Notes under the pieces: generated by a model
Seen by the model: the letters and a program-made list of their open reading frames with translations, nothing else
Database searches by the model: none
What the model was told of the DNA's origin: nothing
Origin: Neofamilia massiliensis
GTDB lineage: Bacteria; Bacillota; Clostridia; Tissierellales; Peptoniphilaceae
Assembly (NCBI RefSeq): GCF_001299475.1
Contig: NZ_CYUJ01000003.1
Span: 190,409-254,408, forward strand
DNA length: 64,000 nucleotides
Direction of reading: 5' to 3'
Shown: positions 1 to 38,381 of the stretch, piece after piece
How positions within the stretch are numbered: position 1 is the stretch's first letter
Layout of the letters: the number at the start of each line of letters is the position of its first letter
Made by a program: the position numbers and the translations under genes

Positions 1-36
1 AATATTTTGTAACTTTTCATAATTATTTCACAAAAA

Positions 37-350
37 AGAGTAAACCTATAAGCCGTGTTCTGTGTTATCTAATCATTAATCTAGCCTTATTGTTGCCAAT
101 AAGTTCATGCGATCTACCATCTGACAATTGCTTGCCCCATTTGATCTTGCTCCAGGTGGGGTTTACATAGCCATATAATCATTTATATGCTGGTGAGCTC
201 TTACTTCACCTTTCCACCCTTACCTTATATAAATAAGGCGGTATATCTCTGTTGCACTAGCCTTAGGGTCACCCCTACTGGACGTTATCCAGCACCTATT
301 GTAGGAGCACGGACTTTCCTCACTTTAAGCGCGATTAGTCAGTTTACTCT
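37..350 (-). ncRNA. rnpB: RNase P RNA (catalytic subunit)
   Basis: Ribozyme subunit of RNase P, which removes the 5' leader of pre-tRNAs together with the RnpA protein. On the minus strand the 5' part carries the conserved core GAGGAAAGUCC followed by UGCUC (positions 300-325), and the 3' part carries the universal GGCUUAUAGG-type element (45-60). The two ends form helix P1: AGAGTAAAC at the 5' end pairs with GTTTACTCT at the 3' end. A run of six T follows P1 on the transcript side and may end transcription. It lies directly downstream of purD with its own promoter. Length is normal for the Firmicute type. Confidence 0.94.
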
Positions 351-356
351 TTCCAT

Positions 357-385
357 ATTATATTTTAAATCTCTTTTTTTATCAA
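357..385 (-). promoter_or_regulatory. rnpB promoter
   Basis: Minus-strand sigma-A type promoter: -35 TTGATA (380-385), 17-bp spacer, -10 TATAAT (357-362). The first base of the rnpB P1 helix lies seven bases after the -10, so transcription can start at the mature 5' end. It occupies the 39-bp gap between the purD stop and rnpB. Confidence 0.8.
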
Positions 386-389
386 GTCT

Positions 390-2042
390 TTATGATATTT
401 TTGTTGGAACGCCTAAAAGTTTTCCATCTGATCCTTGAAGAATTTCTAACAAGGCTCTTTTTAAATTTATAAAATCATTCTTATTAACTTCTTTGCTGCT
501 AGCAAGAACTAAAGACTTTTCTAAATACATATTTTCAAATTCAGCTTCTTTTTCTAAGTCAACTACTAGGGCCTTTTCAAAAGTTTTTTGTAAATCAAAG
601 GCTTTTAAGTTATAAAAAGATTTTTTATTTCCAGCTAAGGTCTTACAAAGGTCTTTTCCTTCTTCTTGATTTAAATTTTCGTAGTCGTATCTTGAGTAGA
701 CTTTTATTTTGCTTTTATCAATATTATTTTTTTCTAAAAGTTTTTCAATTTCCTCAAAATCTCCAAGGTCTTCTTCTATATAAAATCTTTGAACTTGAGG
801 TCCAATATCTGTTCTATAATACTTGCCTTCAAAATCAATTGTCTCTGCTGCTTTATAAGCTTTATTTATTGCTTCCTCAAAAGAATCTTCTATGGCAACT
901 ACTGAAAGAACTCTACCACCTGCTGTCACTAATTTATCATCTTCAAGTTTAGTTCCTGCATGATAAATTTTTACGCCTTCAAGTTGGTGAATGTTTGATA
1001 TTTCATAGCCTTTTTTGTAGCTTTCTGGGTATCCAGCTGATGCTAAAATCAAAGTTAAAACTTTTTTGTCATTAAAGACAAGATCGGCCTCAGCTAATTT
1101 GTCTTCGCTGGTTTTTATCATTAGGTCTAAAAGATCTGAATCCAGTCTATTTAAAATTGATTGGGTTTCAGGATCTCCAAAGCGAGTGTTAAATTCTAAA
1201 ACCTTAATGCCATCTGCTGTAATCATTAGGCCAATAAAAATAACTCCTCTAAAATCCATTTTATCTGCTTGGATCCCTTTTAGAAATGGATTTAGAATCT
1301 CTTCTTCAAGATCAGCTAAATATGGACTTGCTTGAATATTTGGGCTATAAGTTCCCATACCACCTGTATTTAGACCCTGGTCCTTGTCAAAAATATTTTT
1401 ATGATCCTTGGATGTTGGAAGCATTTTTATTGTGTGGTTGTCTACAAAGGCAATTAAACTCATTTCAAAGCCTTCGAGAAACTCTTCAATAATTACTTTC
1501 TTAATTCCATAGTCTCCAGTTTTTAAAATTCTCCTTAAGTACTTTTCTCCATCTGAAAGATTATCTACAATGAAAACTCCCTTACCTGCACAAAGACCAT
1601 CAGCTTTAATTACAGCCTTAGATGATTCGTCTAAAAGTTTTTTTGTAAAATCAATCGCCTGGTTAAGGTTTGATGTTTCTATATATTGACCAGTTGCAAT
1701 ATTATGTCTAACCATAAAGTCTTTGGCAAAGGCCTTAGAGCCTTCTAGCCTTGCACTTTCTTTTCTTGGTCCAAATATTTTTAGCCCCTTATCTTCAAAG
1801 ACATCAACTAGACCTAGGTTTAGTGGGTCTTCTGGACCGACAATAGTAAAGTCTATTTTATTTTTTTCTGCAAAAGCTACTAGGCCATCAAGGTCTGTAA
1901 CTTTTATATCTACATTTTCTCCTACTTTTCCAGTGCCGCCATTGCCTGGAGCAAAATATATTTTATCACACATGGGTGACTGGCTTATTTTTTCTCCAAT
2001 GGCATGTTCTCTTGCACCAGAACCGACAATTAAAATTTTCAT
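390..2042 (-). CDS. purD: Phosphoribosylamine-glycine ligase with an extra C-terminal PurS/PurL-N-like domain
   Basis: GAR synthetase, second step of purine biosynthesis: PRA + glycine + ATP gives GAR. The start chosen is the ATG before KILIVGSGAREHAIGEK, with GGAGGA upstream; a longer frame adds 23 residues that do not belong to the family. The ATP-grasp core is complete, with GPEDPL, KADGLCAGKGV, NTGGMGTYSP and LEFNTRFGDPE. The normal enzyme ends near residue 417, after the YYRTDIG motif. About 134 more residues follow, beginning VQRFYIEEDLGD; they align by eye with residues about 8-130 of the PurL in this window (ID..K.YSRYD against ID..KTYRLYD; LQKTFEKALVVDL against LQDSFDKYLCVNL). The gene is monocistronic with its own promoter. 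Function of the added domain is not known. Confidence 0.95.
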   Translation of the reverse strand: MKILIVGSGAREHAIGEKISQSPMCDKIYFAPGNGGTGKVGENVDIKVTDLDGLVAFAEKNKIDFTIVGPEDPLNLGLVDVFEDKGLKIFGPRKESARLEGSKAFAKDFMVRHNIATGQYIETSNLNQAIDFTKKLLDESSKAVIKADGLCAGKGVFIVDNLSDGEKYLRRILKTGDYGIKKVIIEEFLEGFEMSLIAFVDNHTIKMLPTSKDHKNIFDKDQGLNTGGMGTYSPNIQASPYLADLEEEILNPFLKGIQADKMDFRGVIFIGLMITADGIKVLEFNTRFGDPETQSILNRLDSDLLDLMIKTSEDKLAEADLVFNDKKVLTLILASAGYPESYKKGYEISNIHQLEGVKIYHAGTKLEDDKLVTAGGRVLSVVAIEDSFEEAINKAYKAAETIDFEGKYYRTDIGPQVQRFYIEEDLGDFEEIEKLLEKNNIDKSKIKVYSRYDYENLNQEEGKDLCKTLAGNKKSFYNLKAFDLQKTFEKALVVDLEKEAEFENMYLEKSLVLASSKEVNKNDFINLKRALLEILQGSDGKLLGVPTKIS

Positions 2043-2082
2043 AAGTCCTCCAAAAATTAACAAACAACTTTTTCTCTTTTTT

Positions 2083-2111
2083 ATTATAGCAAATATTATA
2101 AATCTCCTCAA
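2083..2111 (-). promoter_or_regulatory. purD promoter
   Basis: Minus strand: -35 TTGAGG (2106-2111), 17-bp spacer, extended -10 TGCTATAAT (TATAAT at 2083-2088). It gives a leader of about 35 nt with no obvious riboswitch before the GGAGGA ribosome binding site. Confidence 0.7.
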
Positions 2112-2130
2112 TACAAGGACTAGATTAATA

Positions 2131-2160
2131 AAATAAAAAAGCCTGGCCTAAACCAAGCTT
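2131..2160 (-). terminator. Terminator of the dgt-dnaG-rpoD-trmK-nif3 operon
   Basis: On the minus strand AAGCTTGG and CCAGGCTT form an 8-bp stem (one G-U pair) followed by TTTTTTATTTT. It lies just after the nif3 stop and before the purD promoter. Confidence 0.8.
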
Positions 2161-2174
2161 TGTGCAAGTAAGAT

Positions 2175-2936
2175 TTAAAAAAATACTGGATCTGTAAAAA
2201 TATCTACAGATAAGTCTTTAAATTCTTCTTCAATTAAATTTTTCATGGAATAGAGGACTGGAAATTCTGATTGAAAATGACCTAGGTCTACTAATAGCAA
2301 GTCTTCTTCATAAGCTAATTGACCATCGTGATGTTTAATATCTGCTGTTATTAAAACGTCACAGCCTAGGGCCTTGGCAATTTTTATTCCAAAGGCACCT
2401 GATCCGCCAATAAAGGCTAGCTTTTTAATATTGTCCTTACTTCTGCCATAGATTTTATAGTCTTTGAAATTTTTATCTAAAACCTTTTTAAAATCTCCAA
2501 GAGAAACTTCTTCTATCTCTCCTACAGTTCCAATTTCATCTTCAAAGTACTGGGATATGTTTTCTAACTTTTTAAGTGGAAACTTTTCTGCTAGAGCATA
2601 ATTAACTCCACCTACAGCCTTGTCTAAGTTAGTGTGGGCTGAGTAAACAGTGATTGAATTGTCAATTAGTTTTTTTATTAAAGCTCCCTTATAAGTTCCA
2701 ATGTCAATCTTCTTAATCTCATTAAAGAAAAATGGATGGTGGCAGAGAATTAAATTTTTTCCCTCTACTAAAGCCTTATCAACTGCTCGATCTGTTAGGT
2801 CCATAGAAAGCAAAACTCCCTTAAGGTCAGCTTGTTTATCTCCTAATTGCAGGCCACAGTTGTCCCAATCTTCTTGGGTATTTAAGGGTGCAATGGCTTC
2901 TATATAATCTATAAGTTCTGAAATTTTAATAGTCAT
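2175..2936 (-). CDS. Nif3-like dinuclear metal centre hexameric protein (YqfO family)
   Basis: Member of the Nif3/YbgI/YqfO family, annotated by homology as GTP cyclohydrolase 1 type 2-like; the physiological reaction is unsettled. Metal-ligand motifs are visible: LCHHPFFF near residue 66, SAHTNLD near residue 100, and the C-terminal GHFQSE. At 253 residues it is the short form and lacks the PII-like insert of the roughly 370-residue Bacillus version. Its start overlaps the trmK stop by 11 bp, so the two are probably translationally coupled, as in the sigA-yqfN-yqfO order of B. subtilis. Confidence 0.88.
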   Translation of the reverse strand: MTIKISELIDYIEAIAPLNTQEDWDNCGLQLGDKQADLKGVLLSMDLTDRAVDKALVEGKNLILCHHPFFFNEIKKIDIGTYKGALIKKLIDNSITVYSAHTNLDKAVGGVNYALAEKFPLKKLENISQYFEDEIGTVGEIEEVSLGDFKKVLDKNFKDYKIYGRSKDNIKKLAFIGGSGAFGIKIAKALGCDVLITADIKHHDGQLAYEEDLLLVDLGHFQSEFPVLYSMKNLIEEEFKDLSVDIFTDPVFF

Positions 2937-3618
2937 CTAATAGCTCCTTATAAAGTTTAGCTTGTCTTTCTAAGTTTTCTCTTCTCTTTATGGCCTTTAT
3001 ACTTTGTGACTGGCTGGCCTTTTTTATATAATTTTCAGTTTTTTCTAAAAGATGCTCCAAATATTCTTTTAGCACTGGATCTTTTTCTTCTAAAAGATTT
3101 TTAGCAAAATAGTAGTCACAGCTAGATCCTAAATCTTTACCAGGAATAAATTTCATTATTTCATAAAATTTATTTTTATCTCTGACTATGGCTTCTTTTG
3201 TGATTTTAAAACCATTTGCTACTAAATATTTTCTAACTTGGTCTCTTTGGGTCATTGGTTGCAGGATTAGAGTTTTATCCTTCACTAAGTCAAAGGACTC
3301 CTGAAGAATTTTTATAATTAAGTCTCCGCCCATGCCTGCTATAATAACTAGGTCAAAGTCCTTGTCTCTAAGGGGGACAAGGCCGTCGCCTAAAAGAGAA
3401 ATAACTCTTTGGTCATTGCCTCTGTTGTAGGCAAATCTCTCATTTTTTCTCAAAGATGGCTCAGAAATATCAGTGGCATAAACTTTTTTTGCTAAATTTT
3501 CTTCTACTAAATAGTTTGCTACATACCCATGGTCGCAACCAACATCTACTACTATGTCAGCTTTTCCAACTAAATCAACAATTGCACTAAGTCTTTGGTC
3601 TAAAATAAGTTTTTTCAT
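2926..3618 (-). CDS. trmK: tRNA (adenine22-N1)-methyltransferase
   Basis: SAM-dependent methyltransferase of the TrmK (YqfN) family, which makes m1A22 in tRNA in Gram-positive bacteria. The SAM-binding motif I is DVGCDHGYVANYL (residues about 25-37). ATDISEPSLRKN follows as motif II, and LVIIAGMGG carries the family signature. The C-terminal region (about residues 160-230) is helical and charged, as in YqfN. It lies 15 bp after rpoD and overlaps nif3, an order shared with many Firmicutes. Confidence 0.93.
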   Translation of the reverse strand: MKKLILDQRLSAIVDLVGKADIVVDVGCDHGYVANYLVEENLAKKVYATDISEPSLRKNERFAYNRGNDQRVISLLGDGLVPLRDKDFDLVIIAGMGGDLIIKILQESFDLVKDKTLILQPMTQRDQVRKYLVANGFKITKEAIVRDKNKFYEIMKFIPGKDLGSSCDYYFAKNLLEEKDPVLKEYLEHLLEKTENYIKKASQSQSIKAIKRRENLERQAKLYKELLDDY

Positions 3619-3633
3619 TATTCTAAATAATTT

Positions 3634-4770
3634 TTATTCTAAATAGTCTTTTAGTTTTTTGCTTCTGCTAGGATGTCTTAACTTTCTTAGGGCCTTGGCT
3701 TCTATTTGTCTTATTCTCTCTCTAGTTACGTCAAATTCCTTGCCAACTTCTTCTAGAGTTCTAGACCTGCCATCTTCTAGACCAAATCTTAAAATTAAAA
3801 CCTTCTTTTCCCTTTCATTTAAAGTATCCAAAACTTCTGTAAGTTGTTCTTTCAAAAGTGTAAAAGAAGCAGCATCTGATGGCGAAACTATTTCATCATC
3901 TGGAATAAAGTCTCCAAGATGAGAGTCTTCTTCTTCACCAATTGGTGTTTCTAGAGAAACTGGTTCTTGGGCAATTTTTAAAATCTCATGAACCTTGGCT
4001 TCGTCTATGCCCATTTCCTTGGCAATTTCTTCTGGAAGTGGGTCTCTTCCAAGTTTTACTATAAGTTTTCTTTGGGTTCTAACTAACTTATTAATAGTTT
4101 CAACCATGTGAACTGGTATCCTAATAGTCCTAGCTTGGTCGGCAATGGCCCTAGTTATAGCCTGTCTTATCCACCAAGTTGCATAAGTTGAAAACTTAAA
4201 GCCTTTTCTGTAATCAAATTTTTCTACAGCCTTCATTAGACCAAGATTTCCCTCTTGGATTAGGTCTAAGAACATCATGCCCCTGCCTACATATCTCTTT
4301 GCTATAGAGACAACAAGTCTTAGGTTGGCTTCAGCTAGTCTTTGTTTGGCAAATTGGTCACCTGCTTCAATAGCCTTGGCAAGTTTAACTTCTTCTTCTG
4401 CAGTAAGCAAATCGACTTTTCCAATTTCCTTTAAATACATTCTGACAGGGTCATCTACAGAAATACCTGCAGGAACAGACAAGTCTTCGTCTTCGATATT
4501 TATTTCTTCATCATCTTCGTCATCTATATCAGCATCGACGTCAATATCGTCTTCTTCAGCTTCATTTTCTGTCATTACATCTATATGTGCTTTTTCTAAT
4601 CTTTCATAAACAGAGTTTATTTGTTCAGCGTCTATGTCTTCTTGGTCTTCGTAGGCCTTGGCTACATCTTCATAGGTCAAGTAGCCCTTGCCCTTGCCTG
4701 CCTTAATAAGTTCTTCTAAAACTTCTCCTAGTTCTCTGTTCTCTTCAAGTAATTCTTTCGTATCTGTCAT
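3634..4770 (-). CDS. rpoD: Primary sigma factor of RNA polymerase (sigma-70/SigA)
   Basis: Housekeeping sigma factor that directs RNA polymerase to the TTGACA/TATAAT promoters seen in this window. A short region 1.1 is followed by a strongly acidic linker (residues about 70-95). Region 1.2 contains [13 protein letters not shown]. Region 2 contains [15 protein letters not shown], the -10-binding [10 protein letters not shown] and [15 protein letters not shown]. Region 3 starts at [12 protein letters not shown]. Region 4 carries [20 protein letters not shown], the -35-binding helix-turn-helix. The length, 378 residues, matches Firmicute SigA. It lies 25 bp downstream of dnaG, the classical macromolecular-synthesis pairing. 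Confidence 0.98.
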
Positions 4771-4795
4771 AGTATCCCCTCGCTTTAATCTAAGA

Positions 4796-6574
4796 CTACA
4801 AATTTATATTTATAAGCTTGTTTATTAGGTCATTTAAAAGTTCAACTTCATCTGGACTTTTATTTTTTTTTGCTTCTAATATTCTAATTCTCTCTACAAT
4901 ATCTCTTCTAGAATTAATAGAGTCTGTTTCTATTAACCTGTCAATCATTTCTTGAACTAGTTGTTTTTTGTCTATTTTTTCAAATTCTAAAACGTCCTTA
5001 GATAATTCGGTATATAAAAACTCATCAATTATATAATTATTTCTCAAATATTGCAAGACTGTATCCTTGTCTAAGTTTTCTTCTTCATCAAAGCTAGACT
5101 TAATAGATTGGTAAACCTCTTTTAGTTTTTTGTTGTCAATCATAGAGGCATCTAAGGTCTTTGAAAACTCTAAAAAAAGCTCCTTGTCGTCCATCATTAG
5201 CTTAAAAATTTCTATAATATCCTTGTCTTTTTGAGACAAGTTAATTTTTTCAGGCCTCTTTGTTGGCTTAACATTATTTATCCTAGGCTGCTTGCCTTTG
5301 CCAGCAAAAATTTCCGCCTTTATAGCATCTACTGAAATGTCAAAGTCTTTTGATAGTTTTTTTATCTGTAATTCTCTTTCTATTGGACTTTTTATAGTCT
5401 TTATAATGTCTCCAATGTATTTAATCAACTTCACCTGGTCGTCAATTTCATTTAGATTTAAGCTGTCCTTGTAGTCGTCAATTAAAAAATTGTAACCTGA
5501 TTTGGCCCCTTTAAGTTGGCTTTCATATTGGATAGGACCTTCTTCTTGAATAAATGAATCTGGGTCTAGGTCTCTAGGTAATAAGACTACAGATGCGTCC
5601 CAATCTAAAGAATGCAGAACCTTTAAGGCTCTTTTTATGGCAGTCCTTCCTGCCTGGTCTCCGTCATAGGATATATATAAGTTGTCTGTGTACTTTCTCA
5701 AAAGTCTGGCCTGGTCAGGAGTAAAAGCTGTTCCCAAGGAGGCAACTGATCCCTTAATTCCAGCTAGGTCTAAGGCTATTACATCAATATAACCCTCGCA
5801 CAAAATTAGCCTGTCTAGCTTTTTGTGTTTCTCCATTCTATTTAGGCCATAAATTGTCCTGCCCTTGTTATAAATTGGCGAATCTGCTGTATTTATATAC
5901 TTGGGCATTTCATCACCCATAGCCCTGGCACCAAAACCTAAAACCCTGGACTTGGTGTCAATAATTGGAAAGATAATTCTATTTTTGTAAAAATCATAAT
6001 ATGATCCAGACTTATTTTTTCCAATTAAACCAGCTTTAAAGGCAAGTTCAAGGTCATAACCTTGAGCTTTTAAATAACTTACTAGGTCATCCCAAGAATT
6101 TTTTGCATAACCTAGGCCAAATCTTTTAATTCCACCTGGTCCAATATTTCTATTTTTTAAATACCTTAATGGTTCTTTGGCTACTCTTAGGTTTTTCATA
6201 TAATAGGCGGCTACATCTCTAGTCATTGTATACATTTCGTCCATCATATCCTGATAAGAGTTGTCAATGTTTCCTTTTGACTTAATTTCTACTCCGTATT
6301 GGTCTCCTAGCCTTTGGCAGGCTTCTGGAAATGATAGGCCTTCCATTTTCATAACAAAGCTAATCACATTTCCTCCTTCGCCACAGCCAAAACACTTGTA
6401 GATTTTCTTTTGAGGAGAAACTGTAAAGGATGGAGTTTTTTCACCATGAAAAGGACAAAGGCCCTTATAATTTGCTCCAGCTTTTTTTAAATCCATATAC
6501 TGAGAAATTACATCGACTATGTCTGCCCTATCTCTAATTTCTTCTAAAGTTCTATCATCTATAAAATAAGCCAT
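4796..6574 (-). CDS. dnaG: DNA primase
   Basis: Synthesises RNA primers at the replication fork and binds the DnaB/DnaC helicase through its C-terminus. The N-terminal CHC2 zinc finger is seen as [11 protein letters not shown]...CFGCGEGG (residues about 41-66). The TOPRIM catalytic core has [11 protein letters not shown] (metal-binding Glu) and YDGDQAGR (DxD-type). The last 150 or so residues are helical and poorly conserved, as expected for the helicase-binding domain. The length, 592 residues, is normal. It lies 9 bp after dgt and 25 bp before rpoD. Confidence 0.97.
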
Positions 6575-28575: not shown

Positions 28576-30156
28576 CTAATTTGCGCTTCTCATTACGTCG
28601 GTTTTGTTAACCCTTGAATATGAACCTGGATCTGCTAGTCTTTCTTCAACTAAATGAAGAAGATAGGCTATAGACAGAGTCAAAGTCAAGTAGATTAATG
28701 AAGTTATAAAATACGTTTCAAAATACATTAGATTGCCGCCGACAATTGACTTGGTTGTAAAGAACAATTCGTTAACTGCAATTACATTTAAAACTGATGT
28801 GTCCTTTATGTTTACAATAAACTCGTTGCCAATTGATGGAATTATATTTTTTAAAGTTTGTGGAAGGATAACCTGGGTCATTGTTTGAAAATGAGTCATA
28901 CCTAATGAACTTGCTGCTTCAAATTGACCTGAGTCAATAGAATTTATTCCTCCTCTAACAACCTCAGAAAGATAGGCACCTGTGTTAACTGATACAACTA
29001 AAAAGGCTGCTTCCATTGGCGATAAGTTTATGCCAGCAAATTGTAAGAGGCCAAAATAAACTAAAACCGATTGAACAATCATTGGCGTTCCCCTTAGAAC
29101 TTGGACATAAATGTTTACTAGAACTTTTAACAAGTTCAAGAAAAAGTTTTTGCCCTTGTTAAGAGACGGTGGAATTGTTCTTATAATTCCAACTATTAGT
29201 CCAATTACAAGTCCTAGGACTGTTCCAACAAAGGAAATAATTATTGTAAAGGCTGTTCCCCTTAAAAAGTTGTCCTTGTTTTCTACGAAAATATTTTTCA
29301 TATTAGATAAAAATCTTTCTAGGCCATCTCTGTCGTCATCGTCCTTGTCTTGTAGGATATTCATTTCGTCCATTAGATCCATTCGCTCTTCTTGAGAAAT
29401 TGTAGCTAAGATTTCATTAAGCTGGTCTCTTAGGGGACTGCCTTTTTTTATTCCAATGGCAATTTGTGTATCTTCTGGACTGGTTTCAAAACCTGGATCA
29501 AGTTCAGCCATTTTTAGGCCAACTCCTGCCCTTGCTGCTGCCATGGCCTCAGGTCTTTCTGCTACATAGCCGTCGGCTTTTCCTGTTTGAACTGCAACTC
29601 TCATAATTGAAAAGTCTGACATTGGTTCAAGATGGTTGACGCCAGGAATTTGATCTATAACTGTATCGTGGAAGGTGTTTAGCTGGGCGACAATGTCCGC
29701 GTCAGAAAAATCTTCTAGAACCTTTGCGTCGGCGTAAGGTCCCTTTGCATTTACAACCATAACCAAGTCTGACTGGTAATAGCCATCTGAAAAATCAATT
29801 TGCTTGGCCCTTTCTGCTGTTGGACTCATGCCAGCCATTATTAAGTCAATTCGTCCTGATGTTAAAGCTGGAACAAGACCGTCCCATTCAATTTTAATAA
29901 TTACTGGCTTCTTGCCTAGGACCTTGGCAATTTTTTTCGCCATTTGAACATCGTAGCCATTGGCATATTCATTTGATCCTTCAATAGGAAGGGCTCCATT
30001 GTCTGCAGTTTTTTGAGTCCAATTAAATGGTGGATAGGCTGCTTCAAGGCCTATTCTTATTGTGTCTTCCTCTGCTTCAACTGGACTTGAAAAGACAAAG
30101 ATGCTAGGAAGTAAAATTCCTAAAACTAAAATCAAATTTACAATTCTTCTTCTCAT
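28576..30156 (-). CDS. Fused amino-acid-binding protein and ABC permease
   Basis: One polypeptide with a signal peptide (residues 1-28), a family-3 solute-binding domain (about 32-255, with GLEAAYPPFNW, NGYDVQMAKKIAKVLG and DLIMAGMSPTAERAKQIDFS) and a HisM/GlnP-type permease domain (about 295-515, with GTPMIVQSVLVYFG and ASSLGMTHFQTMTQVILPQ). This fused layout is common in Firmicutes and leaves the binding domain tethered to the channel. It is translated behind a T-box leader and followed by its ATPase. Amino-acid specificity is inferred only from the leader. Confidence 0.93.
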   Translation of the reverse strand: MRRRIVNLILVLGILLPSIFVFSSPVEAEEDTIRIGLEAAYPPFNWTQKTADNGALPIEGSNEYANGYDVQMAKKIAKVLGKKPVIIKIEWDGLVPALTSGRIDLIMAGMSPTAERAKQIDFSDGYYQSDLVMVVNAKGPYADAKVLEDFSDADIVAQLNTFHDTVIDQIPGVNHLEPMSDFSIMRVAVQTGKADGYVAERPEAMAAARAGVGLKMAELDPGFETSPEDTQIAIGIKKGSPLRDQLNEILATISQEERMDLMDEMNILQDKDDDDRDGLERFLSNMKNIFVENKDNFLRGTAFTIIISFVGTVLGLVIGLIVGIIRTIPPSLNKGKNFFLNLLKVLVNIYVQVLRGTPMIVQSVLVYFGLLQFAGINLSPMEAAFLVVSVNTGAYLSEVVRGGINSIDSGQFEAASSLGMTHFQTMTQVILPQTLKNIIPSIGNEFIVNIKDTSVLNVIAVNELFFTTKSIVGGNLMYFETYFITSLIYLTLTLSIAYLLHLVEERLADPGSYSRVNKTDVMRSAN

Positions 30157-30194: not shown

Positions 30195-30445
30195 TAAAAA
30201 AGCCCCATCCCTGTTGTTTCCAACTAGGGACGGAGCGTTAAAATTTCCGTGTTACCACCCATATTTATTTAAAGTTCACACCTTAAACCTTATCAAGTAC
30301 TATCATACTCTCCTTCTATAACGGGAAGTCCCGACAACTTATCAAAAATCCAGGCTGCTGCTCCAAGTCTTTTTTCACTCCTACTAACATTATCTTCTCT
30401 CACCACCAAAGACTCTCTGTAAATATATCATAGGGCTAATCTTCT
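30195..30445 (-). promoter_or_regulatory. T-box riboswitch, specifier probably AAA (Lys)
   Basis: The minus-strand transcript shows the T-box GGGTGGTAACACGG (30247-30260) followed by a strong terminator hairpin and TTTTTT (30195-30235). The terminator 5' arm CTCCGT can instead pair with ACGG of the T-box to form the antiterminator. Upstream are AGAGAG and GGTGGTGAGAG (stem I 5' side) and GAA-AAA-AGAC-TTGGAGC (stem I 3' side). By the usual spacing between GAA and TTGGAGC, the specifier triplet reads AAA, lysine. Uncharged tRNA would allow read-through into the transporter genes. The T-box call is firm; the specifier is read by eye. Confidence 0.9.
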
Positions 30446-30469
30446 TATCAAAGCATTTAATTAAATAAC

Positions 30470-30591: not shown

Positions 30592-33500
30592 TTATTTAAA
30601 GTATTCTACTGCAGCTTTGAAAATATTATTTTCTTCTACACCTTCAATGTTTTTAAATAAGTCTTTTTCATTTCTCTCTGGATGACCCATTCTGCCGTAG
30701 ATCTTTCCACACTTGCAAATTAGGCCTTCAATGTTGTATGAAGATCCATTGACAGCTGTCTTATAAACTGAAGCAACTTGGCCGTTTTCTAAAAGTTCTT
30801 TTAAGATTTCTTCTGAAACGACAAGTCTGCCATCGTAGTGGGCTATTGGAGTCTTATAAGTTTTGCCTGCTTCAAAATTCTTTAACCAAGGTGAATTAGT
30901 TGTTTTAATTTCAATTTCTTCTAGTCTTGAAACAAAGTTGCCTGATGAGTTAAAGGAAATTGTCATATCACTTTCTTCTTGGTCTCTAATTTCTCCATAA
31001 GGAAGAAGTCCTGACTTAACTAGACCTTGGAAGCCGTTACCAAGTCCTAAAATTAAGCCGTCATTTTCTTCAAGGAGATATTCAATAGCTTCTTTAACTT
31101 CAGATTTCTTTAAAATATTTGCTATATACTTGCCTGCTCCATCTGGCTCATCTCCTGTAACTGCTCCACCAGGAATAGCTAGGATTTGTGCTTTTTTAAT
31201 TTCTTCAGCAAGGGCTAACTTTGAGGCTTCAAGTTCTTCTTGGGTCCTGTTTTTATAAACAAGGGTCACAACTTCAGCGCCTTCTTCTTCAAAGGCCTTG
31301 GTCAAGTCGTATTCTCCATTTGTTCCGTAGAAAATTGGAATTAATACTCTTGGTCTGTCAGTCTTCTTTGTTGAGTGAAGTTTTCTTTCAACTTCAGCAT
31401 TAGTTAAATCTTTAGCTTCAGAAACTTTTTCGCTAGGGAAAACTGGGTCAAGGGTATTTAAATAGGCCTTTTCTAAGTCTTCTTCATCTAAGGTTACGCC
31501 ATTTACTATCATCTTGTCAGCAAAGCTACCGATGTTTTTAATGAAGTCTCTGTCTTCAAGGTACTCAACTATAAAGGATCCGTATTTTGGTGAATACAAG
31601 TCATCAAGTTTTATGTCAAAGCCTGTTTGATAAAGGGCTTGTTCATAAATTTGTGGAAGAGTTCCCTTGTGGGTAATTGTTGATGCAGCTAAAATATTTC
31701 CTGCTTTAATATCTGCGTGTAATTTTTCAAAGTTGTCTTTTAATTTATCTAAGTCAAGTAAGCCGTTTTTGTCATATTGGGCTTCAACTAAACCTAACTT
31801 GCCCTTGCCTTTAAAGTCTGGAGACAAAATGTTTTCTATGTCTGTTGTTGTTACAGCAAAGGAAATTAGTGTTGGCGGAACGTCAATGTCTTCAAAGGTT
31901 CCACTCATTGAGTCCTTACCTCCAATTGGTGGAGCGTCAAAGTGTGCTGAAGCAACTAAGGCACCAAGTAAAGATTTTAATGGCTTGGACCAAGATTCTT
32001 CTGATGAAAGTCTTTGATAAAATTCTTGGAAGGAAAGTCTGATCTTATCTAGGTCAGATCCTGTTGCTACTAACTTTGCTAGAGATTCGATTACTGCATA
32101 GTAGCCTCCTAGGAATTGAGATTCTTCAGAAAGATATGGGTTAAAACCATAGGACATTAGGGAAACTGTATTTACATTTCCTTCTAGGGCTGGAATCTTT
32201 GCTGCCATAGCTTGGATTGGAACTGTTTGTTTTTTACCACCAAGTGGAGCTAGGACTGTTGCCCTGCCTACTGAGCCGTCAAATAATTCTATAATATTTT
32301 TCTTTGAAGTTGTATTTAAGTCTTTTAAATAAGTCTTTAAGTTTTTAGGGTCTGTATCTGAAACTTTTAAAGATTTAGCAACTTCTTCAGATTTAACCTT
32401 AACTTTTTGGAACCTGTCTGCTCCAGCTGTGTTTATAAAATCATAGGATAGGTCAGCTATTAGCATGTCGTCATGGTACATGGTCATCCTGTTTGTGTCT
32501 ACAACTTCAGCTACAATGCTTGCGTCTAAGTTTTCTGCATCAGCTAATTTTATAAATTCATCAAGGTCATCTTTTCCAACAACTACTGCCATACGTTCTT
32601 GGGATTCAGAAATGGCAACTTCTTTTGGAGCCATGCCTGGATATTTTACAGGAACCTTGTCTAAGTGAATTTCAATTCCGTCAGCAAGTTCGCCAATGGC
32701 AACAGAAACTCCGCCAGCACCAAAGTCATTACATTTCTTTATTAACTTAGCCGCCTTTTCATTTCTAAATAATCTTAGAATTTTTCTTTCTTCAGGGGCA
32801 TTTCCCTTTTGAACTTGGGCAGATTCAGTTACAATTGATTCAACATTGTGAGACTTAGATGAGCCAGTTGCTCCACCAATTCCATCTCTACCAGTTTTGC
32901 CACCTAATAAAATTACCACATCGCCAGGTGTTGGTTCAATTCTCTTTACATTTTCAATTGGAGCGCAGGCCATAATTGCTCCTGCTTCCATTCTCTTGGC
33001 CATATAACCTGGATGATAAATTTCGTCCATATAACCTGCAGCTAGACCAATTTGATTGCCATAAGATGAATAACCTTTGGCAGCATCAATGGCAAGTTTT
33101 CTTTGTGGAAGTTTTCCTTCAAGAGTTTCTTCAAAAGGAGTAAGAGGATTTCCTGCTCCAACAACTCTCATTGCTTGGTAAACAAAGGCTCTAGCAGAAA
33201 GTGGATCTCTAATGGCTCCACCTAAACAAGTTGATGCGCCACCAGTAGGTTCAATTTCTGTTGGGTGGTTGTGGGTTTCATTTTTAAATAATAACAAGTA
33301 GTCTTCTAATTCTTCCCTGCCATTTTTTTCTACCCTGACTTTAATTTTTACAGAACAAGCATTGATTTCAGAAGAAACTTCTAAGTCTTCTAGCTTGTCA
33401 TTTTGTCTCAAATATTTGGCAAGAATTGTACCAAAAGACATTAAAGATATTGGCTTTTCGATTTTTAATTCTTCTCTTAGAGATAAATAATAATCAAAGG

Positions 33501-34263
33501 CCTTTTTAATTTCTCTATCTAGGTCTGTTTTTACATCATCAAAGGCTACTTCTAACTGGGTGTTAAAAGTAGTATGACGGCAGTGGTCTGACCAATAAGT
33601 GTCGATAATTGCAAGTTCAGTTTCGTTAGGGTCCCTATCTTCAGATTTAAAATAGTCTTGGAAAAATTTTAAATCATCTAGGTTCATAGCTAGGTTTTCG
33701 TCAACTAAAAATTGTTTTAAAGTTTCTTCGTCATAGTCTCTAAAGCCATCATAAATAAGATTTTCTAAGTTGTCCGATGCATTTTTCTTTAAAGTCTTTA
33801 CTTCCTTAGAAAGATCAATAGTTTGGCTGTCAACTGGATTTACTAAGTATTCTTCAATTTTTTCAAGGTCTTTGTCACTTAAGCCTTCAAAAACATAGAC
33901 TTCAGCTGACCTGACCCTTACATCTTCGCCAGTAAATAAGGCAATATTATCTAACAAACCTTGGTCTCTTTGGTTAAATTGACCTGGAAGTAGGTTTACA
34001 CAAAGGTATTTGTCAAAGCTATCTTGAAGCTTTTTTGCATCAGCATTTACAAAAACTTCGTCAACTGGTTTTTCTGCTAAAACAGTGTACAAAATTGAAT
34101 CTAAAGTTTCCTTTGAAGATTCAATGTCATAGAGCCTATAGGTTTTTAAAGATCCTAGGTCTATGTGTAAGAAGTCTTTGATTTCACTAATTAAAGCTTC
34201 TTCTCTCTTGTCATCTTTTCTCCTTACAAACACCCTGTTTACACAAGTACTACTATTATTCAT
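30592..34263 (-). CDS. purL: Phosphoribosylformylglycinamidine synthase, single-chain clostridial type
   Basis: Converts FGAR + glutamine + ATP to FGAM, fourth step of purine synthesis. All parts are in one 1223-residue chain: an N-terminal PurS-like domain (about 1-165), the linker, and two AIRS-type ATP domains (about 210-900; NETHNHPTEIEPTGGASTC-type and DFGAGGVSVAIGEL motifs). A C-terminal class-I glutaminase follows (LAIPGGAVTGDEPDG; GLGNGFQGLVKSGLLP contains no Cys and the catalytic position is uncertain by eye). The ATG has GAGGAGG upstream. Transcription starts 215 bp upstream and passes an intrinsic terminator. Confidence 0.95.
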   Translation of the reverse strand: MNNSSTCVNRVFVRRKDDKREEALISEIKDFLHIDLGSLKTYRLYDIESSKETLDSILYTVLAEKPVDEVFVNADAKKLQDSFDKYLCVNLLPGQFNQRDQGLLDNIALFTGEDVRVRSAEVYVFEGLSDKDLEKIEEYLVNPVDSQTIDLSKEVKTLKKNASDNLENLIYDGFRDYDEETLKQFLVDENLAMNLDDLKFFQDYFKSEDRDPNETELAIIDTYWSDHCRHTTFNTQLEVAFDDVKTDLDREIKKAFDYYLSLREELKIEKPISLMSFGTILAKYLRQNDKLEDLEVSSEINACSVKIKVRVEKNGREELEDYLLLFKNETHNHPTEIEPTGGASTCLGGAIRDPLSARAFVYQAMRVVGAGNPLTPFEETLEGKLPQRKLAIDAAKGYSSYGNQIGLAAGYMDEIYHPGYMAKRMEAGAIMACAPIENVKRIEPTPGDVVILLGGKTGRDGIGGATGSSKSHNVESIVTESAQVQKGNAPEERKILRLFRNEKAAKLIKKCNDFGAGGVSVAIGELADGIEIHLDKVPVKYPGMAPKEVAISESQERMAVVVGKDDLDEFIKLADAENLDASIVAEVVDTNRMTMYHDDMLIADLSYDFINTAGADRFQKVKVKSEEVAKSLKVSDTDPKNLKTYLKDLNTTSKKNIIELFDGSVGRATVLAPLGGKKQTVPIQAMAAKIPALEGNVNTVSLMSYGFNPYLSEESQFLGGYYAVIESLAKLVATGSDLDKIRLSFQEFYQRLSSEESWSKPLKSLLGALVASAHFDAPPIGGKDSMSGTFEDIDVPPTLISFAVTTTDIENILSPDFKGKGKLGLVEAQYDKNGLLDLDKLKDNFEKLHADIKAGNILAASTITHKGTLPQIYEQALYQTGFDIKLDDLYSPKYGSFIVEYLEDRDFIKNIGSFADKMIVNGVTLDEEDLEKAYLNTLDPVFPSEKVSEAKDLTNAEVERKLHSTKKTDRPRVLIPIFYGTNGEYDLTKAFEEEGAEVVTLVYKNRTQEELEASKLALAEEIKKAQILAIPGGAVTGDEPDGAGKYIANILKKSEVKEAIEYLLEENDGLILGLGNGFQGLVKSGLLPYGEIRDQEESDMTISFNSSGNFVSRLEEIEIKTTNSPWLKNFEAGKTYKTPIAHYDGRLVVSEEILKELLENGQVASVYKTAVNGSSYNIEGLICKCGKIYGRMGHPERNEKDLFKNIEGVEENNIFKAAVEYFK

Positions 34264-34316: not shown

Positions 34317-34343
34317 CAAAAAAGAGAACTAATAAAGTTCTCT
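34317..34343 (-). terminator. Terminator in the purL leader (candidate attenuator)
   Basis: Minus strand: 8-bp perfect stem AGAGAACT / AGTTCTCT with a 5-base loop, followed by TTTTTT. It lies 54 bp upstream of the purL ATG and downstream of the purL promoter, so full-length purL mRNA requires read-through. An outer repeat, TAAGTGTA (34351-34358) and TACACTTA (34307-34314), flanks it. Confidence 0.75.
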
Positions 34344-34449
34344 AAATACTTACACTTATTTTGTTAAAGCTAAAAGAAGAGACACTCCAAGCCTTAGTTT
34401 TAGATAGTGGTAAAATTTTTCTTAAATATCTAAAAGAAAATAAAAACAT
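34342..34449 (-). CDS. Possible 35-residue leader peptide upstream of purL
   Basis: ATG at 34449 with GGGGAG six bases upstream; the peptide begins MFLFSFRYLRKILPLSKTKA and is rich in Phe and Ser. Its TAG stop (34342-34344) falls at the 5' foot of the leader terminator stem, so a ribosome at the stop would interfere with the hairpin. It has no Gly, Gln or Asp codons, the amino acids used in purine synthesis. It could be a chance ORF through a riboswitch. Confidence 0.35.
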   Translation of the reverse strand: MFLFSFRYLRKILPLSKTKAWSVSSFSFNKISVSI

Positions 34450-34477
34450 AAGTCTCTCCCCAATTAATTTCACTATT

Positions 34478-34486
34478 ATTATAGCA
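34478..34486 (-). promoter_or_regulatory. purL promoter (extended -10)
   Basis: Minus strand TGCTATAAT: -10 TATAAT at 34478-34483 with the TGN extension. The -35 region (TACAAT) is poor, as usual for extended -10 promoters. The start point would fall about 20 bases before the leader P1 helix. Confidence 0.55.
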
Positions 34487-34515: not shown

Positions 34516-35010
34516 TTATTTTTTTACAAAATCAAAGGCAATTCTTTCACTGCCGTCTTTAACATAAATTATTCCACATTTTTTAAAGCCAGCTTTTTCT
34601 ATGGCTGCTAACATTTTTTCATTGGCTCTGTGGGTATCTACTCTTAAATAATTAATTTGGTCTTTGGCATAGTCAAAAACTATTTAGGAAAGGCCTTTGA
34701 CACTTCCATCAGATGCTAATCTGTGAATGGTTCCATAGGGAATATCTTCTGACCAAGCTCCATCATAAATTTTTTTATAAGTTTCTTCTTGGCCAAAGAT
34801 TAAAGAGAAAGTTCCAATAACTTTTTCATCTAAGATGCAGACATAAGAGTTGCCAGCTTCAATGTCTTTTATAAGAACATCTTCTCCTGGATAAGCTCCG
34901 CCCCACTGACTTGGATTGCCATTGGCTGCCATAAAGGTCTTGGCTTTTGTTATTATTTTTTTTATATCTTCAAGATCAGTTAATTTTGCTTTTCTAATTT
35001 TTATATCCAT
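34516..35010 (-). pseudogene. GNAT acetyltransferase interrupted by one in-frame stop codon
   Basis: The frame from ATG 35010 reads a GNAT-like protein (IRKAKLTDLEDIKKIITKAK; WGGAYPGEDVLIKDI) to residue 108, where TAA occurs at 34684-34686 after DGSVKGLS. In the same frame, without any shift, translation continues IVFDYAKDQINYLRVDTHRA...AIEKAGFKKCGIIYV to a second TAA at 34516-34518. The continuation is plainly the missing acetyl-CoA-binding half. In relatives a lysine or similar residue would be expected at the stop, and AAA to TAA is a single change. Full length would be 164 residues. Either a recent nonsense mutation or a sequencing error. Confidence 0.85.
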
Positions 35011-36890: not shown

Positions 36891-38381
36891 GGTTCTATAC
36901 TAAATAGTGTTGATGGAAATATCCATTGACACTATTTTTTAGTTTTTAGTGTAAAAAAATAGACATAACTTACACTTTCTCCTAAAATATAGTCATCATC
37001 AATCTAATAAGGAGTGGTTTGTTATGTCTATTAATCTTAATTCTATCAGAGATATCTTAAATATTAAAGATGATAATATTATTTTTTCTGATAATTTTTA
37101 TCTTAAGAAGAAGTTTAGGTATGTTGATTCTCATTTTTTCTTTGCTTCTTTGTCTTATGTGCCTTCTTTCTGTCCTTGTTGTGGGGCTATAAATTCTTCT
37201 AATTCTATTGTTAAGAATGGTTTTAAGTCTTCTAGGATTAGGCTTCTTCCTATTTCTAATTTGCCTGCTTTTTTGGTTTTGAAGAAACAAAGGTTTTTGT
37301 GTAGGGATTGTGGTTCTTCTTTTATGGCTGAGTCGTCTTTTGTGGATCCTTATTGTAATTTGTCTAATGATCTTAAAAAGGCTATCTTAATTGATTTAAT
37401 GGAGGTTTATTCTCTTAAGTCTATTGCTAGAAGATGGCATGTTTCTCCTTCTACTGTTTTAAGGGTTTTGAATTCTGTGCCGCCTCTTAAGAATGATTTT
37501 TCTTCTCTTCCTGAGTTTATTTGTATGGATGAGTTTAAGTCGGTTAAGAGTGTTGATTTTAATATGAGTTTTATTTTTATGGATGCTGTTTCTAGAAGGG
37601 TTATTGATATTTTGCCTGATAGAAGAATTCATAGGCTTATTTCTTATTTTCAAAGGTATCCTATCGAGGTTAGAAGAAGGGTTAAGGGAGTTGTTATTGA
37701 TATGTATGAGCCTTATATTACTCTTATTCAGTCTGTTTTTCCTAATGCCGTGATTATTTTTGATAGGTTTCATATTGTTCAAAATCTTACTCGGGCTTTG
37801 GATAGGACTAGGATTTCTGTTATGAATGGTTTTGCTCGTGATTCTCAGGAATACAAGGTTTTAAAGAGATATTGGAAGTTGTTTTTATTAAATGAGTTTG
37901 AGTTACATCCTAGTTTTATTCAAAGGTATACTGCTTTTATAAATTTTATGAGTCAGGCTTCTATTGTTTCTTTTATGAGAGATATTGATCCTGTTTTAGA
38001 TAAGTCTTACATGTGTGTTCAGGATATTTTAGCTGCGATTAGGCTTTCTAATACTGATATGCTTTCTTCTTTGTTTGATAGAAAGCTTGATTCTAGGGTT
38101 TCTCATTATGTTAATGTTGCAATTGAAACTTGTAGGAGGTATGAGGAGTTTATTTTAAATGCTTGTAGATACAAGCTTTCTAATGGCCCATTAGAAGGAA
38201 AAATCAACAAGATTAAGCTTATTAAGAGAAATGCTTTTGGTCATAGAAATTTCTATAACTACAAGAAAAGAATAATTTTGGTCTTTGAAAAGTTTCGGTA
38301 TATTGAAAATGGCCCAGACATTTCTGTCTGAGCCATTTGATAGTTATTTTTCTCTTCATCAACACTATTTGACAAAGAACC
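36891..38381 (+). mobile_element. ISL3-family insertion sequence, complete (1491 bp)
   Basis: Left end GGTTCTATACTAAATAGTGT and right end (reverse complement) GGTTCTTTGTCAAATAGTGT are imperfect terminal inverted repeats that continue into TTGATG. It is flanked by the 8-bp direct repeat AGAAAAAT. One transposase gene fills the element. Ends, duplication and ORF are all intact, so the copy may still move. Confidence 0.93.
37024..38331 (+). CDS. ISL3-family transposase
   Basis: DDE transposase. The N-terminal zinc-binding region is CPCCG...CRDCG (residues about 51-98), followed by a helix-turn-helix (KSIARRWHVSPSTVLRVL). The DDE core has FICMDEFKS (first Asp), VIDMYEPY and FDRFHIVQNLTRALD (second region), and SNGPLEGKINKIKLIKRNAFG (Glu). 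The length of 435 residues is full. AAGGAG lies upstream of the ATG. Codons are strikingly T-ending (TCT, GTT, CTT, TTT) compared with flanking genes, consistent with acquisition from outside. Confidence 0.95.
   Translation: MSINLNSIRDILNIKDDNIIFSDNFYLKKKFRYVDSHFFFASLSYVPSFCPCCGAINSSNSIVKNGFKSSRIRLLPISNLPAFLVLKKQRFLCRDCGSSFMAESSFVDPYCNLSNDLKKAILIDLMEVYSLKSIARRWHVSPSTVLRVLNSVPPLKNDFSSLPEFICMDEFKSVKSVDFNMSFIFMDAVSRRVIDILPDRRIHRLISYFQRYPIEVRRRVKGVVIDMYEPYITLIQSVFPNAVIIFDRFHIVQNLTRALDRTRISVMNGFARDSQEYKVLKRYWKLFLLNEFELHPSFIQRYTAFINFMSQASIVSFMRDIDPVLDKSYMCVQDILAAIRLSNTDMLSSLFDRKLDSRVSHYVNVAIETCRRYEEFILNACRYKLSNGPLEGKINKIKLIKRNAFGHRNFYNYKKRIILVFEKFRYIENGPDISV

Follow-up and report, generated by a model that had tools for sequence, protein, structure and literature searches.

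Ribosomes of E. coli repress terminators that closely follow a stop codon, and pyrBI has its terminator inside its own leader ORF (both from the available part of PMC4824070). The E. coli pyrBI leader, a UTP-sensitive system based on coupling (available part of PMC4824070, together with general knowledge of the system), is similar to the purL leader described here in that its leader ORF runs into the terminator, in the direct ribosomal block, which is our proposal for purL, and in serving nucleotide biosynthesis. Unlike pyrBI, the purL leaders precede purine genes, belong to a Gram-positive anaerobe family and have a helix, P1, that is able to hide their own Shine-Dalgarno sequence; their response to nucleotides is a prediction. 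The mgtM leader ORF of the Salmonella mgtCBR operon, which has an unconserved sequence, reads ATP with a proposed effect on coupling; the purL leaders share with it a short ORF of unconserved amino acid sequence and, putatively, the reading of a purine nucleotide, whereas the mgtCBR genes are on at high ATP via alternative stem-loops, none of which were found in the purL leaders, and the sign expected for purL is opposite (mgtM as described in the available part of PMC3641672). Transcription attenuation that depends on translation is also described for bmrB, the leader ORF of the B. subtilis bmrCD operon. Like the purL leader, it is Gram-positive and has an intrinsic terminator within a leader ORF whose translation is required, as would be the case for purL; unlike the purL leader, it responds to antibiotics directed against protein synthesis, using three alternative stem-loops (available part of PMC4191407).

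Two RNA elements of purine genes are also relevant to this comparison. Aptamers for PRPP have been described (available part of PMC5912903). The PRPP riboswitch is a subtype of ykkC, and ykkC-type elements are found before the other purine unit of the genome studied here and, in an order-level relative (L029), before purL; unlike the purL leader, it has a conserved aptamer and no leader ORF, and it was not found before purL in the window. The purS motif of Corynebacterium, a weak riboswitch candidate with six examples in one genus, is likewise located before FGAM synthase, and, unlike for the purL leader, no leader ORF appears in the available part of its description (PMC11109978).

We analysed a stretch of 64,000 nucleotides from Neofamilia massiliensis (the window), in which the purL leader spans about 34471 to 34264 on the minus strand. 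The leader and its gene are composed of the following parts:

34478-34486, minus strand: extended -10 element TGCTATAAT, read from the sequence
About 34471, minus strand: predicted RNA start, placed from the -10 element
34461-34455, minus strand: leader Shine-Dalgarno sequence GGGGAGA, read from the sequence
34450-34461, minus strand: Shine-Dalgarno region forming the 5' strand of helix P1, from sequence and fold
34342-34449, minus strand: leader ORF of 35 codons from ATG to TAG, MFLFSFRYLRKILPLSKTKAWSVSSFSFNKISVSI, read from the sequence
34376-34387, minus strand: 3' strand of P1, within codons 21-25 of the leader ORF, from fold and pairing test
34398-34435, minus strand: helix P2, inside the P1-closed loop, not conserved, from the fold
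34323-34343, minus strand: intrinsic terminator hairpin with a stem of 8 pairs, from terminator scan and fold
To about 34317, minus strand: T run 3' of the terminator hairpin
30592-34263, minus strand: purL, formylglycinamide ribonucleotide amidotransferase of 1223 aa, with Pfam domains GATase_5, AIRS_C and FGAR-AT_linker

The initial annotation, which was made from the sequence alone, had listed an extended -10 element, a strong Shine-Dalgarno sequence, a 35-codon ORF, the helices P1 and P2 and a terminator before purL, and all of them are confirmed in place. It had also put the ORF stop at the foot of the terminator, where the last two bases of the TAG are indeed the first two bases of the stem (stop at -1). 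Downstream of the terminator there is a Shine-Dalgarno sequence for purL and then the purL ATG at 34263; PurL is a single chain that includes the glutamine amidotransferase domain according to Pfam. Terminators and ORFs were located with custom scripts. Between 34000 and 34800 there are two terminator-like sites, versus 0.3 (sd 0.6) in shuffled sequences. Among the 96 terminator-like sites of the window (54 on the plus strand, 42 on the minus strand), only the purL leader fits a rule that combines a TG before a -10 element with at least 5/6 matches, a Shine-Dalgarno sequence and ATG 14-50 nt further on, and an ORF of at least 20 codons that stops at or in the hairpin. No Rfam 15 family reached its threshold in the leader, and in a permissive scan all scores stayed well under the family cut-offs, which agrees with the earlier view that the sequence does not fit the purine, PRPP/ppGpp, ZTP, THF or T-box classes.

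From these features and from their distribution in related genomes, we consider it rather probable that the purL leader is a translation-gated transcription attenuator. Transcription would begin about 10 nt upstream of the leader Shine-Dalgarno sequence, and a ribosome would load on the short ORF, trail RNA polymerase closely and reach the end of the ORF as the terminator emerges. By covering the 5' arm of the hairpin, it would allow the polymerase to read through into purL. If no ribosome is in place when codons 21-25 emerge, P1 would hide the Shine-Dalgarno sequence, the terminator would form and transcription would stop. The arrival of the ribosome would matter mostly, rather than the identity of the peptide. 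As the signal we can suggest, with some reserve, the supply of purine nucleotides acting on the speed of the polymerase: low ATP or GTP would slow the polymerase, the ribosome would win the race and purL would be made, a sign that would be right for a biosynthetic gene. We infer the ribosome as the block to the terminator, P1 as the timer, and the signal; comparison of sequences argues for the open frame, the stop at or in the hairpin, the promoter spacing, the recurrence, the lack of an antiterminator and a P1 in a minority of leaders. A direct-block attenuator of the pyrBI kind is suggested because the ribosome can reach the terminator, there is little constraint on the peptide, no alternative stem was found and, in part of the class, the start can shut itself when the ribosome comes late. 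As in pyrBI-type leaders, the leader ORF overlaps or abuts an intrinsic terminator, and the frame appears to matter and the peptide not to, except in Anaerococcus and in genera g6 and g9, and with no excess of indels whose length is a multiple of three. Among the observations that count against such a gate are the conservation of KKL[RK] and KLRGK in these exceptions, for which a model based on position alone has no use, and the fit of a lenient version of the leader rule to 7/109 other gene heads and 59/829 background sites. The indel lengths, the many leaders with a non-significant P1, the optimum fold of G001, which lacks P1, and the alignment-fold energies of some genera (all given below) also count against it. 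In B. subtilis, RNA polymerase runs ahead of the ribosomes, so that close coupling is not to be taken for granted in Bacillota.

With purL as bait, 104 genomes were compared (60 + 41 + G000, G001 and G135), and a leader was assigned to the class if it has a short ORF that ends at or in a terminator, before purL or the head of the purL unit. Comparable leaders were found before the purL-holding unit in 61 of these genomes and in 14 genera, one of which (g22, two genomes) is doubtful; G010 also has a leader, yet is not among the 61. The leader-bearing genera include Anaerococcus, and the NCBI taxonomy gives Peptoniphilaceae, Tissierellales; in a PurL scan of genome contigs there was one Anaerococcus, and the others were more distant taxa. 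The unit always contains purL because purL was the bait. It consists of purL alone in g1 and G141, of purC-purL in g34 and g11, and of a fused purD-purL in g32, and most other genera have longer units, putatively headed by other purine genes. In G033, PurD and PurL are fused in one frame (L014, positions 262-5169; Pfam GARS_N/A/C and FGAR-AT domains), and the same fusion is suggested for many genomes of the family, the window's not being one of them, by open frames of about 1630-1675 codons at the purL locus.

The 61 leaders were chosen for having an ORF near a terminator. Among 57 of them, 40 fit a rule similar to that used in the window, whereas 0.2 are expected on shuffling the whole sequence from the -10 element to the stem and 2.4 on shuffling no more than the part downstream of the ATG. 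A control on gene gaps is fairer than this shuffle because the 57 were a selected set. It covered, in 80 genome stretches, the gaps of 150 nt or more that precede same-strand genes. The strict rule asks for TG and a -10 element (at least 5/6), a Shine-Dalgarno sequence and ATG 14-50 nt later, and an ORF of 20-75 codons with its stop between 15 nt before the stem and 15 nt after the hairpin; it fits 19/65 purL-unit heads versus 0/109 other gene heads, and 19/42 versus 0/27 if only gaps with a terminator are counted. The lenient rule, which accepts GTG and TTG starts and a weaker -10 element and does not require TG, fits 36/65 purL-unit heads versus 7/109 others. Over all terminator-like sites, the strict rule fits the heads in 20/80 genomes versus 1/829 other sites, and the lenient rule fits 59/829 background sites; this background counted coding regions and both strands, which is why the gene-gap control was added. 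Called head by head with the lenient rule, the 80 genomes comprise 37 with a leader, 12 with a terminator only, 23 with neither, six with the head at a contig edge and two with a ykkC-like motif. Among twenty purC heads, 18 are without a leader ORF, 13 of these having a terminator, and in the two that have one (G134 and G035) purC precedes a purL of the same orientation.

The leaders also agree in their dimensions. The best -10-like hexamer is located 19-48 nt before the leader ATG (mean 29.5, sd 6.3; 57 leaders), and the distance from the ATG to the stem is 64-193 nt, the value of 64 belonging to the short frame of G034. Relative to the stem start, the stop falls at -15 to 0 nt in 39/61 leaders and beyond it in 22/61 (17 of them within 30 nt, five further in, including G119, with a wrong stem), whereas no stop (0/61) was found from -35 to -16 nt, although this range was allowed. 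Four genomes are outside the 57-leader counts (-10 spacing, antiterminator and rule fit) and the single-sequence folds, namely G119 for its wrong stem, G034 for its short GTG frame, and G103 and G104 for a stop far into the hairpin; G119 and G103 are included in the P1 test, which covers 41/61 leaders, and residue composition covers 38/61. For G075 and G097 an ATG inside the Shine-Dalgarno sequence was used as the start in the figures on spacing, stop position, motifs, composition, fold, P1 and pN/pS where they are included, and the right start in the indel counts, the gene-gap control and, for G075, the test of the open frame. Pairing with the 5' arm of the terminator, as expected of an antiterminator, is not in excess (mean z +0.49; z below -1.64 in 1/57 leaders). 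The initial annotation had named a ribosome-controlled attenuator as one of its two readings, and this reading gains support from an architecture that recurs in 61/104 genomes with an open frame, a stop at or in the hairpin and no antiterminator.

Within genera, the frame stays open in 16/16 independent pairs, with a joint chance of 10^-7.35 for pairs drawn from ORF-bearing leaders. Lengths of indels in the leader ORFs are at the chance level, 21/63 being multiples of three; this count comes from alignments with costlier gaps, naive alignments having put gaps even into the gap-free pair of genus g1. For 17 independent pairs pN/pS is 0.75 in frame, compared with 0.89 and 0.73 when the two other frames are read; the pooled value over 21 overlapping pairs, for which ORFs were placed manually in G142 and G147, is 0.70. 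The peptide thus compared appears not to be conserved overall while its frame is kept. There are local exceptions: KKL[RK] in Anaerococcus and DLxLI[ND]KLRGK in g6 and g9 are conserved at the peptide level with synonymous changes.

These exceptions bear on nascent-peptide arrest, in which the leader peptide would bind a purine-pathway metabolite in the exit tunnel and the ribosome would halt at the end of the ORF and block the terminator, as TnaC does with tryptophan. The synonymously varying KKL[RK] and KLRGK, about 15-28 codons before the terminator, speak for arrest, as do W21-S-V-S and F-S-F-N, which are kept in g1. We nevertheless regard arrest as unlikely, given that the pooled pN/pS shows no reduction in frame compared with the other frames and that the C-terminal ends differ freely: the last residues vary among 38 representative leaders, in g23 the frame 3' of the P1 strand differs between species, and the conserved tunnel residues or C-terminus of TnaC- and SpeFL-type peptides were not found. 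No peptide motif common to all genera was seen. A profile of the g1 peptide run against 130 family genomes gave E values of at most 1e-22 only in G000 and G001, the next match having E 0.004; weaker loci inspected by eye, from a set of 28 of which one was empty, were largely antisense to or inside apparent other genes.

Genus g1 is represented by three genomes, the window's own (G000), the sister species G001 and G002, and has two usable leaders, as purL of G002 starts at a contig edge. PurL of G001 is 83% identical to that of the window, and its leader has the same -10 element 28 nt before the ATG, the same Shine-Dalgarno sequence and the same terminator. Its ORF has exactly 35 codons and aligns gap-free despite 37 substitutions in 34 codons; taken alone, the chance of this frame staying open is 0.11. 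Conservation along the two leaders is uneven: 15/15 positions are identical in the Shine-Dalgarno sequence with the ATG, 11/12 in the 3' strand of P1, 25/34 in the spacer, 37/62 in the stretch to the purL Shine-Dalgarno sequence and 24/26 columns in the terminator, where the pairs are kept, and the codons enclosed by P1 (2-20) form the least conserved leader stretch with 30/57. The codons for WSVS and FSFN are nearly identical in nucleotides between the two sequences, so that RNA and peptide constraint are inseparable in g1. Used as a query against the three g1 genomes, the leader DNA has good matches only at its own locus and in G001, and weaker ones were taken as AT-rich chance; a plasmid collection gave no match.

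The window's leader has a minimum free energy of -33.0 kcal/mol (z -2.25; equalled by 1/200 shuffles). The corresponding fold contains P1, which pairs 34461-34455 with 34382-34376 and 34453-34450 with 34387-34384 (11 pairs, one mismatch), P2, which pairs 34435-34427 with 34406-34398 (9 pairs), and the terminator. Tested against shuffled ORF bodies, the pairing of the Shine-Dalgarno sequence with 34376-34387 has z -2.64 and p 0.005. The consensus fold of the two g1 sequences retains P1 and the terminator, drops P2 and has no compensatory changes; the optimum fold of G001 alone has neither P1 nor P2, and the Shine-Dalgarno sequence of G001 pairs with the same codons as in G000 (p 0.04). The initial annotation had expected helices, ORF and terminator to be conserved in related purL leaders, which held in G001 for the ORF, the terminator and, in the consensus, P1, and failed for P2 and for P1 in the optimum fold.

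Pairing of the kind seen in P1 was noticed as a class feature post hoc and then tested by shuffles and with a gene control. Across 41 leaders, in which relatives of one genus are non-independent, the mean z is -1.22, with p<0.05 in 10/41 and p<0.01 in 6/41, versus a mean z of 0.1, one case with p<0.05 and none with p<0.01 among 79 ordinary genes; the test as run gave 11 leaders with p<0.05, and G097 has p 0.05 from the right start. Significant leaders are G000, G001, G119, G012, G134, four of g23 and G074, from six genera, and the pairing is individually non-significant in 31/41. The sequence of P1 varies by genus. One of the P1 pairs of g32 is C-G in G033 and G120 and U-A in G119, as seen by eye in the alignment. 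In g23 the 3' strand GCG ACT AAT TTT has no synonymous change in 10 of the 11 leaders of one type, while neighbouring codons vary; G141, a further member of g23, has a different leader. The apparent peptide motifs ATNF (g23), SIF (Anaerococcus) and WSV (g1) fall in the 3' strand of P1. IFATNF, SIF and WSVS had been considered as motifs of an arrest peptide and were dropped, as they fall in P1 strands and pN/pS is not lowered in frame.

If the domain closed by P1 were an aptamer that controls access to the leader Shine-Dalgarno sequence, the leader would be a metabolite-binding riboswitch, the other reading in the initial annotation, where a new purine-pathway class was envisaged. The position upstream of a purine gene, the fold energy of the window's leader and the P1 strands as its best conserved stretch would all fit an aptamer. 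In alignment folds before the terminator, covarying pairs number six of 19 in g3 (though 15/114 cells are broken), three in g14 and one in g32, versus none in g25A, g25B, g1 and g23, the last from an alignment that loses even the terminator, so that its fold says little. The energy z of these folds against shuffled columns is -2.5 in g25A, -2.1 in g32, -1.8 in g1, -1.2 in g3, -1.1 in g25B, 0.1 in g14 and 0.4 in g23, and the modelled energies in g25A, g32 and g1 leave room for conserved structure beyond P1. Against a riboswitch, which we hold to be improbable, stand the low identity of the enclosed domain between the sister species, with P2 lost and no conserved aptamer core in g1, the lack of covarying pairs in four of the seven groups and of a match in Rfam. 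The initial interpretation is therefore supported in part, on the side of the attenuator.

A constitutive or decorative terminator behind an ORF that is open by chance would account for the frame of G001 by itself, given its probability of 0.11, and becomes very hard to maintain in view of the recurrence over genera (19/65 versus 0/109 heads) and of the frame open in 16/16 pairs. Classical attenuation by an amino acid, with a stall at Gln, Gly or Asp codons that lets an antiterminator form, would match a biosynthetic unit whose terminator is preceded by a leader ORF and a 1.43-fold excess of Gly, and is the least credible explanation of all, as Gln is depleted (15 observed versus 40.8 expected) and Asp neutral (50 versus 46) in 38 leaders, no antiterminator was found in 57, and the terminators sit at the stop, versus more than 20 bp after it in amino acid attenuators (available part of PMC4824070).

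In the window's genome purL stands alone, and purC with further purine genes forms another unit. The leader of this purC unit has a ykkC-type element (RF00442, 44.1 bits with a gathering score of 63, E 7e-5), and 12/19 further purC heads have RF00442 matches at E of at most 0.01, all below the gathering score. We take the ykkC-type elements before purC units to be of the PRPP subtype, and the further genes of the unit to be, from their protein sequences, purE-F-M-N-H. In L029 a purine aptamer and then an RF00442 match precede purL (positions 1242-1438, plus strand), a pair that resembles the known tandem guanine-PRPP riboswitch (available part of PMC5912903, together with general knowledge). 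Applied to the whole family, translation-gated attenuation would be a purine counterpart of pyrBI, a conceivable but speculative extension: polymerase and first ribosome would race on a throw-away ORF with P1 as the timer, purines would be sensed without an aptamer, a regulator protein or a conserved peptide, and control of the pathway would be shared, a riboswitch of the ykkC/PRPP type acting on the purC unit.

Several other features were seen around the purine genes. A T-box leader (RF00230, 97.9 bits; 30223-30460, minus strand) separates purL from the gene (28576-30156) of a fused solute-binding/permease transporter. Upstream of purL there is a 108-aa frame (34684-35010, minus strand) that appears interrupted relative to a 196-aa frame in G001 (L160, positions 4164-4754), and an ISL3-family transposase is found near purL (37024-38331, plus strand). 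The window also contains RNase P RNA class A (33-350, minus strand). Beside the main purine operon of L156, pieces of a group II intron (RF01998 and RF02001) were identified at 4661-4940 on the minus strand.

Among the matches listed in the open-access literature, a scope that leaves most subscription papers outside, there was no report of such a purine leader, and no purine leader ORF in this family was found in the available parts of PMC8632094, PMC11109978 and PMC2965389. The class can escape aptamer-based searches because little of its sequence is conserved beyond the frame, the place of the stop and a helix. In Bacillota, the coupling of transcription to translation is doubted, and the leader, if the proposed attenuation is true, would offer a simple test of it there. 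Purine synthesis in an anaerobe family, many members of which are human-associated, would then be controlled by this coupling; as judged from sequence comparison, the purine genes of the family probably need a ribosome close behind the copying enzyme in order to be switched on.
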